DNA of 64,000 bases from Intestinibaculum porci (GTDB taxonomy: Bacteria > Bacillota_I > Bacilli_A > Erysipelotrichales > Coprobacillaceae). The translations under genes and the position numbers were made by a program. Below, piece after piece: positions 5,417 to 52,490 of the stretch; within the stretch, counting starts at the first letter, position 1, and each line of letters begins with the position of its first letter. Location: the NCBI RefSeq assembly GCF_003925875.1, contig NZ_AP019309.1, positions 558,001 through 622,000 on the forward strand, written 5' to 3'. A model generated the notes under the pieces. The model was not told the origin of the DNA, searched no databases, and saw nothing but the letters and a program-made list of their open reading frames with translations.

Positions 5417-5656
5417 ATGCAAAGTATTTTAATTAAAGATACCACTCGTGAAGAACGCTTGAAAATTATTCAGGATAGCTTGAACTGTGATGATTCTGCT
5501 GGCTGTGAAAACTGCAGCGGCTGCGGCGTCTTTGGCGCTGGTGATCCGTTTGAAATGTATCGTGATTACATCGAAGGCAAACGTGAAATTAAAGACATCA
5601 ATATGTCTTTTATGGCGCGTATGTTTATCCGTGGACGTAATGAAAATCCTGATTAG
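5417..5656 (+). CDS. Small Cys-rich protein, first of a tandem pair
   Basis: The 79-residue protein has a C-x2-C-x2-C cluster (CENCSGC) plus an upstream Cys, in the frame TTREER...DYIEGKREIKDIN. The start at 5417 follows AGAGGTGAGG. It is clearly paralogous to the next gene: both share the TTREER start, a Cys cluster in the middle and (M)Y-x-DYIEG(K/R)-(K/R)E near the end. I recall that related short proteins in Firmicutes databases are often mislabelled as purine biosynthesis proteins; nothing here supports that. A metal or Fe-S site is plausible from the Cys spacing. Function unknown. Confidence 0.7.
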   Translation: MQSILIKDTTREERLKIIQDSLNCDDSAGCENCSGCGVFGAGDPFEMYRDYIEGKREIKDINMSFMARMFIRGRNENPD

Positions 5657-5828
5657 CGAAACAACGCGTGAAGAACGCGAAAAAATCGTCAGTGATGCCC
5701 TTGGCAATACGGATGGCCTCTGCGATGGCTGCGCCTGTGGGATTACAAAGATGTATGACGATTACATTGAAGGACGTAAAGAATTATCAGAAATTCATCA
5801 GGCATTTGAAAAGGAGAGAAACCGCTAG
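5640..5828 (+). CDS. Small Cys-rich protein, second of a tandem pair
   Basis: The 62-residue paralogue of the previous gene overlaps it by 17 nt in another frame, so it is probably translationally coupled. It keeps ETTREEREKI at the start, a CDGCAC cluster and KMYDDYIEGRKELSEI at the end. It is shorter because it lacks the Gly-rich insert and the C-terminal tail of its partner. The stop codon lies in the terminator hairpin. Function unknown; the pair may form a metal-binding complex (inference). Confidence 0.7.
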   Translation: MKILISETTREEREKIVSDALGNTDGLCDGCACGITKMYDDYIEGRKELSEIHQAFEKERNR

Positions 5829-5870
5829 GTTCCTCTCCTTTTTCTCTAAAGAGCGGTAGGCGCTCTTTTC
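5811..5870 (+). terminator. Two consecutive intrinsic terminators
   Basis: First stem AAGGAGAG/CTCTCCTT (5811-5818, 5833-5840) with inner AACC/GGTT pairs and a T-run. Second stem AAAGAGCG/CGCTCTTT (5848-5855, 5861-5868) with a short T-run. Confidence 0.75.
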
Positions 5871-5879
5871 GATGATTGA

Positions 5880-6082
5880 GGTCATTGTAGGGATTTAATT
5901 GAGTTACCAGTGGGCTGGACAATGACCGTATACATGTGAGCGGGAAACTTCACATATAAGTTATGTTGTAAGAAATTGGGATATGGGAGTTATTTCTAAT
6001 TAGAAACATAACAAGAAGAAATGACTGCTTGAACAGTCAGCAACGTTTATTTGGGAGATAAACGTTATTATTAGCTTTTTTC
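5880..6082. ncRNA. Candidate structured RNA, five successive hairpins
   Basis: Successive inverted repeats: GGTCATTGT 5880-5888 with ACAATGACC 5919-5927, enclosing CCAG/CTGG; ATGTGA/TCACAT at about 5934-5955; GTTATGTT (5961-5968) with AACATAAC (6005-6012), enclosing AGAAAT/ATTTCT; TGACTG/CAGTCA at 6023-6040; AACGTTTAT 6042-6050 with ATAAACGTT 6058-6066, then a six-T run near 6076. No reading frame fits. It does not match a class I can name. Positions 6083-6362 are AT-rich with nothing clear except a TATAAT at 6303-6308 that may serve the lipoprotein gene. Confidence 0.4.
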
Positions 6083-6362
6083 CCCTAACTCGAACAACAT
6101 TATGCCATAAGCTAGTAGGTTAGTAAATGAAATTTTCATAAATTGATGGATTTTTGCATGAAAAAGAATTATTTTGCATAAAATATATCTTGGAATAGCT
6201 CATGGTTATATATTTAAAGAAGTATGTCTTTTTATGTAAACGCTTTGATTGTGGGAAATGGAAAGATTGGCGAGATGGGTGGATTTCTAATGATGAAAAC
6301 ATTATAATATGCATGGTCACATGTTTGGCTAAATGGAAGGAATTATGAAGAGGAAGACATAA

Positions 6363-7235
6363 ATGAAGAAGTTGATGATCAGTGTGCTGATGGTTGGTAT
6401 CATGCTTTCTGGATGCCAGCAGAAATGCGCCACGACAAAGAAGAAAGCAATTACCAGTGAAGCAACTGTGACGAATGATTTTCATTTAGCAGACAATTAT
6501 CATGAAGATCTGCTGGGTAAATATGTACAAATGCATATCACTTCGTGTGACTATGATCAAACGCAACAAGCTTTTGTGATTTATGCCCAGTTACAAAATC
6601 GTACCAAAGAAACTGTGCAGGTACTATCCTCTTATGCCCTGGTGCACGGCTATCAGATTCCCGTTAAAGCGGATCATAATCAGGTTAAAGCGGGAAAAAA
6701 GGAGGCGGCTTCGTTCCTGATTTATGAAAAAGCTCTGAAAAAAGCGAATGTGACCTTTGGCGGAGCCAGTATGACTTTCAGGGCGATAAAGGGCGCGCAG
6801 GTTTTAGAAAAAGAGACTGTAGGCTTGCCGCTGCCGAAGTTTCATCATGCCGATCAGTCATCCTGCACATATGTTGGCAATAATCAGTCAGAGAAACGAA
6901 TCAATCGCTTATTTGTGAATAAAAAGGGGCTTAAAGCGTCGTTAGATTACTGCTGTCAAAATGATGCGGTTGATCGCATTTATTTACGTGTCATGAATAC
7001 GACATCGCATAACTTACAAGTTGTCATGACATCATTAAAGGCCGCTAATGGGGCCGTTTCTGTCAAAGCGCCGGTGCAGATCGTTATGGCGGGAAACAGT
7101 ATGATTTGCGAATATCACGCGCCAGCGACGGTTGGTGACTTAAAAGCCGGCATCACTTTTTATGACAATAGTCATCATCGCGTCTTTATGAAGACGACTT
7201 TAACCATAAAACAAAGCGATTTTAAGAGCATCTAG
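6363..7235 (+). CDS. Putative lipoprotein of unknown function
   Basis: The 290-residue protein has a lipoprotein signal peptide: MKKL, a hydrophobic core, then the lipobox LSGC with Cys18 to be lipidated. The mature part appears to hold two beta-rich modules (about 40-150 and 185-285). Segments such as YAQLQNRTKETVQVLSSYAL and YLRVMNTTSHNLQV resemble extracellular Ig-like DUF lipoproteins of Firmicutes. It should be anchored on the outer face of the membrane. GAGGAAG precedes the ATG and a strong terminator follows. No neighbour suggests a specific role. Confidence 0.75.
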   Translation: MKKLMISVLMVGIMLSGCQQKCATTKKKAITSEATVTNDFHLADNYHEDLLGKYVQMHITSCDYDQTQQAFVIYAQLQNRTKETVQVLSSYALVHGYQIPVKADHNQVKAGKKEAASFLIYEKALKKANVTFGGASMTFRAIKGAQVLEKETVGLPLPKFHHADQSSCTYVGNNQSEKRINRLFVNKKGLKASLDYCCQNDAVDRIYLRVMNTTSHNLQVVMTSLKAANGAVSVKAPVQIVMAGNSMICEYHAPATVGDLKAGITFYDNSHHRVFMKTTLTIKQSDFKSI

Positions 7236-33836: not shown

Positions 33837-34137
33837 AACAACCGATGAAACAAATACATTGAAGGGAAGTAGTAAAAGCGAAGGACAGGTAAAGAGAAGT
33901 TCTGGATGGTGCGAAGAACATGCTGACGACGTTTTGAACTCATCCTGGAGTGGAGCACTGAAATTGCAGTAGGTAGCTACGGAACTTGCGACCGTTATCA
34001 CGCTAGAGTATAACTTTTTCGAAAGCGTACTCGATAAGGTTGGCATCGTGAGGTGTCAATAAACTGAGGTGGAACCACGAAGCATATCTCTCTCGTCCTC
34101 TTGCTATAGTATATGTAGTAGAGACGAGAGTTTTTTT
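33837..34137 (+). promoter_or_regulatory. Leucine T-box riboswitch with terminator
   Basis: The leader shows AGTAGT and GAGAAG...GGATGGTGCGA stem I elements, a specifier segment GAACTCATCC with Leu codon CTC at 33940-33942, and the T-box AGGTGGAACCACG at 34067-34079. It ends in a terminator (CTCTCGTC 34090-34097 with GACGAGAG 34123-34130, then T7). Uncharged tRNA-Leu should favour the antiterminator and switch on leuA and the genes after it. The variable base of the TGGN bulge is A. Confidence 0.88.
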
Positions 34138-50736: not shown

Positions 50737-51134
50737 AGGAGTATTGCATGTCAACTACCCGCGACTAAAGTCGCAGGCTTGTCTCGCGCAAGTCTAAGAC
50801 TGGCGTCGGTACATATGTACTAGCTGATTAGCCTAATGTGTTTCGGGCACTACGTTATCCGCAAAAATACAGGCACCTGGGGATTCTTCCCACGTCCCTC
50901 GCTCTGCGGGCATGCATTAAACATCTCTGACGGGCAGGAGAAGTGTGCATGTCATACACAACTGCGGATAACCTTGGCGATGGGAACTACCCCGAAAGGG
51001 AGAAACTGCATATATACTGCCTCTGGCAAGCGTATGCAGGCGTGCGTAAGCGCACACTTATTCATCAATCTTAGCTCAGCTGATTAAGTTTATATATTCA
51101 AACGTTATTATTTTACAGGAAAGGAGGAATTTCC
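50737..51134 (+). ncRNA. Predicted omegaRNA of IscB
   Basis: IscB guide RNAs are encoded directly upstream of iscB, with the guide taken from the flank at the left end. Here about 390 nt without a reading frame are full of hairpins: GCGACT/AGTCGC (50761-50774), AGGCTTG/CAAGTCT (50775-50795), the 12-bp palindrome GTACATATGTAC (50809-50820) and CCCCGAAAGGG (about 50992). The predicted guide would be the host bases just before about 50747 (GAAGCGAGGAGTATTG). RNA ends are inferred. Confidence 0.65.
50758..50777 (+). repeat. Left-end hairpin of the IscB element
   Basis: CCC then GCGACT-AA-AGTCGC then AGG. It shares its outer bases with the right-end hairpin at 52514. Confidence 0.65.
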
Positions 51135-52490
51135 ATGAGCGTATGCGTTGTAGCGCCGGATAAAAAGCCGCTGATGCCGACAAGCGAGTACCGTGCAAGA
51201 AAGCTGCTGAAAAGCGGCAAGGCTGTTATCTTTAAGTATAAGCCGTTCACGATCATGCTTACAAGAATCGTAAGCGAGAATATGCAGCCGATCGAGTACT
51301 GCTGCGATACGGGATACAAACATATTGGTGTATCCATCAAATCAGAAAAACACGAGTATTTTGACTGCCAATTTGACATGCTTCAGGATGAGAAGAAGCG
51401 GCACGATGACCGCCGGAAAATGCGCCGCACAAGAAGAAACAGGCTTCGCTACAGAAAGCCCCGTTTTGATAATCGGACAGCTTCCAAAAAGGAAGGATGG
51501 CTGGCGCCGTCGCTGAGAAACATCCGTGATCAGCATATCCGTATTTTTGAGCGGTTCCTTGAGGTCATGCCGATAGTCTCAGCCACGTTTGAAATGGGCT
51601 CGTTTGACGTCCACGCCATGCATGAGTTTGAGGCAACAGGCACCGTGCTTAAAGGCGATGATTATCAGAAGGGGCCGCGATACGGCATGAACACGCTGAG
51701 AAAAGCCGTTTTCTATCGTGACAATTACACATGCCAGGTGTGCGGGGAAACCGCGGATGAAGGCGCTATTCTGAGAGTGCATCATATCGGCTTCGAAACA
51801 GGCGATCATACGAACCGCATGAGCAATCTGCTGACCGTCTGCACAAAATGCCATACTTCGGCAAACCACAAGCCGGGCGGAAAGCTGTACGACCTGAAGC
51901 CTAGGACGAAGCCGTTTAACGGCGCAGCCTTCATGAACGCTGTCAGATGGCAGATGTTCAGAACGCTGAAAAGCACCCACCCTGATTTAGAATGGCACAT
52001 GACATATGGCGCTGCTACGCAGGAGGCAAGAAGAGTCCTACACCTTGAAAAGTCGCATGCCAATGACGCCTACGCCATGGGAGAATTCCATCCAAGACGC
52101 AGGACGCCTTTTATGCATTTTCAGAAGCTGAGACGGAATAACCGCATCCTTGAAAAATTCTTTGATGCAAAATACGTTGATGCGCGAGACGGCAAGACGA
52201 AGAAAGGTGCAGAGCTGTCATGCGGACGCACAGCCAGAAGCGAGTCAAGACACTCCGAGAAGAACCTTCGCGTATTCAGAGAGCGGAAAGTTTCGAAAGG
52301 CAGACGCGTGATCAGAAGAAGCCACTATACACTGCGTCCTGGCGATACTGTTGTTATTGGCGGAGAGAAGCATAGGGCAAAGGGCGTTCATAACAAAGGC
52401 ACATATGTTGTGACAGACGCCAAGAAGTCAGTGCCTGTTAAGAAAGTAGAGAAGATTATTCATGCGGGTGGGTATATGCCTGTTAAATAG
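51135..52490 (+). CDS. iscB: IscB RNA-guided nuclease (RuvC + HNH)
   Basis: Cas9-ancestor nuclease (451 aa). Domain order: PLMP domain (KPLMPTSEYRARKLLKSGKA, 11-30, with P12-L13-M14-P15), RuvC-I with Asp58 in CCDTGYKHIGV, Arg-rich bridge helix (about 88-114), RuvC-II with Glu153 in ATFEMGSFD, HNH domain (about 190-245: CQVC, HHIGFETGDHTNRMSNLL, CTKCH), RuvC-III HANDAYA with His308 and Asp311, and a C-terminal PAM/TAM-interacting-like beta region. All catalytic residues are present. AAAGGAGG precedes the ATG. It should cut DNA matched by the omegaRNA guide and help keep the element in the genome. Confidence 0.93.
   Translation: MSVCVVAPDKKPLMPTSEYRARKLLKSGKAVIFKYKPFTIMLTRIVSENMQPIEYCCDTGYKHIGVSIKSEKHEYFDCQFDMLQDEKKRHDDRRKMRRTRRNRLRYRKPRFDNRTASKKEGWLAPSLRNIRDQHIRIFERFLEVMPIVSATFEMGSFDVHAMHEFEATGTVLKGDDYQKGPRYGMNTLRKAVFYRDNYTCQVCGETADEGAILRVHHIGFETGDHTNRMSNLLTVCTKCHTSANHKPGGKLYDLKPRTKPFNGAAFMNAVRWQMFRTLKSTHPDLEWHMTYGAATQEARRVLHLEKSHANDAYAMGEFHPRRRTPFMHFQKLRRNNRILEKFFDAKYVDARDGKTKKGAELSCGRTARSESRHSEKNLRVFRERKVSKGRRVIRRSHYTLRPGDTVVIGGEKHRAKGVHNKGTYVVTDAKKSVPVKKVEKIIHAGGYMPVK

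Follow-up and report, generated by a model that had tools for sequence, protein, structure and literature searches.

A row of hairpins at a place without a gene raises the question of whether an RNA is made there, from which strand, and of what kind. Such a place lies in the window analysed here, a stretch of 64,000 nucleotides from the genome of Intestinibaculum porci, in which a sequence-only reading had noticed five consecutive inverted repeats at 5880-6082.

The hairpin cluster and its conservation

The five inverted repeats are present, and no gene covers them. Their arms lie at 5880-5888/5919-5927 (9 bp), 5931-5939/5950-5958 (9 bp, with one position that forms a standard pair, G-U, on the minus strand alone), 5960-5967/6005-6012 (8 bp), 6022-6028/6033-6039 (7 bp, including one G-U on the minus strand) and 6042-6050/6058-6066 (9 bp). 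The cluster is beyond chance. The minus-strand fold of the region has a z-score of -6.42, with none of 200 dinucleotide shuffles as stable, and the plus-strand fold one of -2.38, with 3 of 200 shuffles as stable.

The cluster was described as lying between a double terminator and a lipoprotein gene. On the downstream side this agrees with a lipoprotein-like ORF at 6363-7235 (+), whose LSGC lipobox was read by eye. On the upstream side two hairpins are found at 5809-5842 and 5848-5868, but a consensus scan called neither as a terminator on either strand, probably because their U-tracts sit inside the stems. The T-run noted near the end of the cluster exists at 6076-6081, but on the strand likely to be transcribed it is read as a run of A close to the 5′ end and is not a terminator. 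Still further upstream, the plus strand carries two adjacent, related small Cys-rich ORFs (5417-5656 and 5640-5828, of 79 and 62 aa). Neither has a Pfam or NCBIfam match, and the first has homologues in 12 of the 43 family genomes.

Comparison within the genus was made between the window's own genome (G000) and G001, the sole other genome and species of the genus compared, which is 82% complete. A blastn search over 60 relatives gave matches in three of them, namely G000, G001 and G037. The 29-base match in G037 lies inside a 483-aa ORF, presumably ATP synthase beta-like, and was rejected, leaving G001 as the one true homologue beyond the window. In G001 the region has the same neighbours, orthologues of the Cys-rich ORF and of the HAD hydrolase gene; the lipoprotein-like gene, which in the window separates the RNA from the HAD gene, is absent from that place. 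Within the RNA region, 156 of 208 aligned bases are identical between the two species (75%), compared with 118 of 239 in the adjoining spacer, which is the level of shuffled controls (48%, sd 4%), and 408 of 664 in the HAD gene (61%). The Cys-rich gene has 202 identical bases out of 240, and the stretch with the upstream hairpins 17 out of 36. Blocks of identity run uninterrupted through the loops and the promoter position, and the part from P3 to P5 is conserved as well as the 5′ part. The better preservation of the RNA region relative to the flanking spacer and the HAD gene indicates that selection acts on this stretch, with sharp borders.

Wider searches returned the same two sequences. A pattern search over the order found 2 of 315 genomes, and the pattern scan of the whole contig collection found a single stretch, ONFH01000015.1, which is the G001 contig. 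The covariance model R1, applied to the family, matched 7 of 43 genomes at E <= 1, two of them real, with 248 and 203 bits; the other five (16.8-20.9 bits, E 0.12-0.72) were set aside as chance after their DNA had been read. In the order, the model found 4 of 315 genomes at E <= 0.05 among the matches listed. These are the same two together with L068 (25.6 bits, E 0.005), which falls within a long open frame, and L069 (24.7 bits, E 0.010), which overlaps the end of one, both at about the level of chance for 315 genomes. Among 395 genomes drawn from the class, only the window was found at E <= 0.002, and G001 was not among the matches listed. These order and class searches scored 7 and 5 candidates per genome, among the matches listed, and distant relatives may escape them. 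A second copy in G000 or G001 was not found at E <= 10, the other matches having E-values of 3.5 and 4.8. As for mobile elements, the phage search with the region and the pattern scan of viral contigs gave no match, and the only plasmid match (35 bases, a Staphylococcus condimenti plasmid, E 0.6) was attributed to chance, so that no relation of the region to such elements was found in these searches. Outside the genus, the Cys-rich gene has its nearest homologues at L016, L017 and L018 (from G026, G018 and G016), and as judged by eye a different sequence follows each of them. The best reading of these searches is that the RNA gene would be single-copy and restricted to the genus. Conservation in relatives had been proposed as the check on the locus: the region and its hairpins are kept in the other species of the genus and are limited to the genus in every search.

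Strand and architecture of the predicted RNA

The locus shows that reading a hairpin cluster on a single strand can put the RNA on the wrong strand. The most likely strand of the RNA is the minus strand, an assignment that is supported by the fold z-scores, a promoter site, the lack of a promoter on the plus side and in-stem G-U pairs. In G001 the z-scores are -5.28 for the minus strand (none of 200 shuffles as stable) and -1.33 for the plus strand (20 of 200). A predicted sigma-A-type promoter is located on the minus strand at 6099-6127 (TTTACT, 17 nt, CATAAT, the second hexamer being preceded by TG; 9 of 12 matches), and its minus-strand counterpart in G001 lies at the same place (L002:1683-1655; TTGTCA, 17 nt, TAAATT, again with TG). 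In both species 5-6 bases separate the end of this site from the first conserved base, and no other site in the promoter list has the TG. Promoter-like sites in general are not enriched (4 found, compared with 2.4 and 2.8 in shuffles). Their frequency in shuffles is about 0.2% per position and strand, so one would fall within three bases of a given place in about 1% of cases per species. No plus-strand promoter-like site was found within or before the cluster in the window and G001 stretches; in G001 only about 40 bases, taken up by a terminator-like hairpin, separate the upstream stop codon from the cluster. Finally, three in-stem G-U pairs (two in h1 of G001 and one in h4 of the window) become A-C mismatches on the plus strand; the helices were chosen on the minus strand, and two stem-end G-U pairs were consequently left uncounted.

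Two observations count against the minus strand. The pair alignment has a lower consensus energy and a higher SCI on the plus strand (-28.95, SCI 0.53) than on the minus strand (-24.76, SCI 0.44), and the outer end of the proposed pseudoknot pairs better on the plus strand (U-G) than on the minus strand (C-A). The z-scores of the same consensus are -5.69 for the minus and -4.56 for the plus strand, with none of 200 column shuffles reaching either.

The predicted gene occupies 5806-6092 on the minus strand (about 290 nt), with a conserved core at 5878-6093. The 5′ end (CGAGUUAGGGGAA) would lie near 6092, placed 7-8 nt after the -10 hexamer, and the 3′ end near 5806, placed at the hairpin 5809-5842. 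The earlier suggestion of an orphan non-coding RNA is the best reading, with no sensible Rfam match, but the evidence favours the opposite strand, on which the RNA would start near 6092 and stop below 5880.

Close to the 5′ end of the predicted RNA lies GAGUUA (6086-6091), which may form a pseudoknot of 6 bp with UAACUC (5901-5906) in the loop of the last hairpin; both strands of this modelled helix are identical in the two species, so that it lacks support from covariation. The adjacent GGGGA (6081-6085) could instead form a long-range closing helix with UCCCU (5889-5893), of 5 bp in the window and 8 bp in G001, where it appears in the predicted fold. Hairpin h1 (6041-6067, 10 bp) carries the loop CUCCCAA with UCCC at 6053-6056, and in G001 it has 11 bp with mostly different stem letters. 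Hairpin h2 (6022-6039) is followed by a U-rich tail and is terminator-like in both species. Hairpin P3 (5960-6012) consists of an 8-bp stem, identical in both species, and a large loop with UCCCAUAUCCCAAU and UCCC at 5985-5988 and 5978-5981; G001 has an additional GCCC-UAGC-GGGC hairpin after it. Hairpin h4 (5931-5958, with UCCC at 5942-5945 in its loop) is unalignable in G001, which has a different hairpin of 7-8 bp. The last hairpin, P5 (5881-5926), has stems identical in both species and comprises an inner hairpin P5a (5907-5918), the pseudoknot strand and UCCC at 5890-5893.

Beyond the core, the hairpin 5809-5842 (15 bp) is a possible terminator on both strands, with four U on the minus and five on the plus strand, the U-tracts being judged by eye; its G001 counterpart has a weaker stem and five U. 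The hairpin 5848-5868 is terminator-like on the plus strand only, with a UUUU tail. The possible ends of a transcription unit of its own are the promoter-like site, which both species have in this position, and the 3′ hairpins, which suit a two-way terminator but were uncalled by the scan. G is scarce in the RNA, with 29 of 215 bases in the window and 34 of 253 in G001. Small ORFs were considered on both strands in frames of at least 9 residues. A minus-strand frame in each species shares the residues SHIPI, encoded by a conserved loop, and these frames were rejected as coding because no Shine-Dalgarno-like sequence precedes either start.

Covariation support from the two sequences is thin. 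Hairpin h2 has one both-sided change, from G-C to C-G. In h1 the CUCCCAA loop is the same in the two species and the letters of the stem differ, with all pairs standard, and a hand alignment gives one change from A-U to U-G. Hairpin h4 exists in both species without a possible alignment, and no variation is seen in P3, P5 or the pseudoknot. The automatic alignment (R1) preserves five of the nine h1 pairs of the window and one of its nine h4 pairs. Overall, the gene, its strand and its fold have fairly good support, and its targets do not.

Relation to known RNAs

At gathering threshold, the only Rfam matches in the whole window are HEARO and T-box, both elsewhere. The HEARO RNA (50750-50992, +, 121.8 bits) lies directly 5′ of a 451-aa ORF (51135-52490, +) with HNH-like and RRXRR-like features, which we take to be IscB-like, and the T-box leader is located at 33850-34103 (+, 101.8 bits, cut-off 93). 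The sequence-only reading had recognised no riboswitch or housekeeping RNA in the cluster, and Rfam likewise gives the region no match at gathering and no sensible one at E <= 10. At that limit, the region and its G001 homologue obtained weak matches with E-values of 0.15 or more, mostly to eukaryotic snoRNA and miRNA models, which were regarded as chance, as were matches to MicC, SorY and SpF25 far under their cut-offs. Rfam contains an LhrC model, and no LhrC match was found among its families at E <= 10. The raiA/ModT model (RF03072) has no match in the region at this limit and none in G000, the control genomes being silent too. The 6S RNA model (RF00013), a long hairpin with a bubble at its centre, has no match in the region. 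Elsewhere in G000 there are two 6S candidates, at C1:2887681-2887789 and 1584143-1584304, one with 47.0 bits (just over the cut-off) and one with 36.2 (under it).

The closest likeness is to the LhrC family of Listeria monocytogenes (LhrC1-5, Rli22 and Rli33-1), with which the RNA shares redundant (C)UCCC motifs in loops or single strands, a low G content and, as predicted here, an intergenic gene of its own. As reported, three CUCCC-type sites of LhrC bind the ribosome-binding site of lapB, and a change in the GGGAG of that site abolishes binding (PMC4132741); target pairing is reported to be Hfq-independent (PMC4132741, PMC8079631). The LhrCs are 105-121 nt long, occur in seven copies and consist of two stem-loops joined by a single strand, whereas the RNA predicted here has about 290 nt, a single copy and a proposed pseudoknot, with five hairpins over about 215 nt. 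A UCCC contact motif directed at Shine-Dalgarno sites is also named for RNAIII, RsaE and SprD of Staphylococcus aureus and FsrA of Bacillus subtilis (PMC4132741); these RNAs are similar in this C-rich motif, but no sequence or covariance-model relation to them was found. The raiA motif (ModT) is described as a stand-alone pseudoknotted Firmicutes RNA of similar size with a SigA promoter (PMC11706538), the pseudoknot of the present RNA being a proposed one. It is reported from more than 2,500 species, in contrast to one genus, in the searches made, for the RNA considered here. By its sequence, the RNA would be a new family of a kind already known, and it could figure among the candidates of two large structured-RNA screens (PMC8632094, PMC8040213).

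UCCC motifs, proposed function and alternatives

Each of the two RNAs contains five UCCC motifs, compared with 1.3 (window) and 1.8 (G001) expected, a count reached by 0.06% and 0.56%, respectively, of 5000 dinucleotide shuffles. Four of the five are at homologous sites, while the fifth is in the h4 loop in the window and in the h2 loop in G001. The mean probability of being unpaired is 0.78-1.00 for nine of the ten motifs; in G001 the P5 motif takes part in the alternative closing helix, which lowers its value to 0.02. Conserved, unpaired UCCC motifs, the mark of the UCCC-motif (C-rich) sRNAs of low-GC Gram-positive bacteria, are thus present. No Hfq match was found in G000 or in the 82% complete G001 (controls positive in 5 of 14 genomes), and none for CsrA in the same two genomes (control positive in 3 of 14). 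The similarity of the UCCC loops to those of LhrC-type sRNAs, together with the lack of Hfq and CsrA matches, leads to an antisense reading.

Candidate targets were sought at two levels. Against 58 translation starts in the window, four loops give a mean best duplex of -8.71 kcal/mol, compared with -6.24 inside genes. Shuffled loops bind these starts equally well (-9.03, sd 0.76; 127 of 200 at least as good), so base composition alone accounts for the affinity of the loops. The complement of the P3 loop, with at most two mismatches, occurs 61 times in G000 (control 32) and 42 times in G001 (control 9). Thirty of these 103 matches were inspected: some, including L040, L059 and L062, are placed immediately ahead of a possible start or across it, none is exact, and no orthologue pair and no target with strong complementarity common to both species was recognised.

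The preferred reading, to which we assign about even chances, is that of an antisense regulator of mRNAs, present in one copy, restricted to the genus and independent of Hfq, in the form of a minus-strand RNA with five hairpins and UCCC loops. Transcription would start from its own promoter near 6092 and end near 5806 in a terminator common with the upstream plus-strand gene, giving an RNA of about 290 nt. The five hairpins would be held together by pairing of the 5′ end with the last hairpin, leaving about five UCCC motifs exposed in loops. A C-rich loop would then start pairing with a G-rich ribosome-binding site (GGGAG or GGGAU) and block translation without Hfq, and the several loops may provide one RNA with several targets. 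The homologous structured region, its placement and the conserved exposed motifs are observed in both species, and the minus strand has support; the transcript ends, the pseudoknot, the pairing with targets and its effect on translation are what we infer.

Among the alternatives, the least improbable is a structured RNA of the minus strand that binds a protein, the ribosome or a ligand, like the large ornate raiA/ModT with its unknown partners, its UCCC loops having no antisense role. This is possible but unlikely. A compact design with a proposed 5′-3′ pseudoknot, large loops that are exactly conserved and the negative target test all point towards it, while the UCCC excess and the fact that the two species carry the fifth UCCC in different hairpins, which points to selection on the motif itself and not on a single site, speak against it; raiA itself has no match in the region or the genome, although the genome control was positive nowhere. 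Considerably more doubtful is a new RNA class, a two-state riboregulator in which one conserved anti-Shine-Dalgarno loop among several would be switched on and off. In the modelled first state the GAGUUA-UAACUC pseudoknot would leave the P5 UCCC free, and in the second, GGGGA(AUU)-(AAU)UCCCU pairing would mask it.

An RNA of the plus strand, either a 3′ UTR element or read-through of the Cys-rich gene whose GGGA-rich loops bind a protein (as a CsrB-like sponge) or a ligand, is improbable, if slightly less so than the two-state switch. Hairpins form on both strands, GGGA does occur in the plus-strand loops, and the consensus energy, the SCI and the U-G pair gained by the pseudoknot favour this strand. 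It is opposed by the weak plus-strand z-scores, the lack of a plus promoter-like site within or before the cluster, the terminator-like hairpins between gene and cluster (two in the window, one in G001) and the missing partner of a CsrB-type sponge, a CsrA gene having been found in neither of the two genomes (G001 82% complete), with the control positive in 3 of 14. There is little to recommend an LhrC-like short form of about 75 nt that stops at h2, the downstream hairpins belonging only to a long form. In the window stretch h2 with its tail is the sole terminator-like site, the G001 stretch has it and one more, and in both it lies on the minus strand, but the tails are interrupted U-tracts (UUUCUUCUUG, UUCUUCAUGU) and P3 to P5 equal the 5′ part in conservation. 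It is very improbable that the cluster is a functionless remnant or chance assembly common to two close species by descent. Its restriction to the genus in the searches made would fit such an origin; its preservation above that of the spacer and the HAD gene, with identity blocks unbroken at the loops and the promoter position, would not.

In the literature searched, no paper on small RNAs and transcription start sites in Erysipelotrichaceae was found. The Erysipelotrichia are common gut bacteria whose small-RNA regulation is nearly uncharted, and an RNA with several UCCC loops, in two genomes without an Hfq match, may offer a simple system for work on regulation by base pairing that does not need this chaperone.
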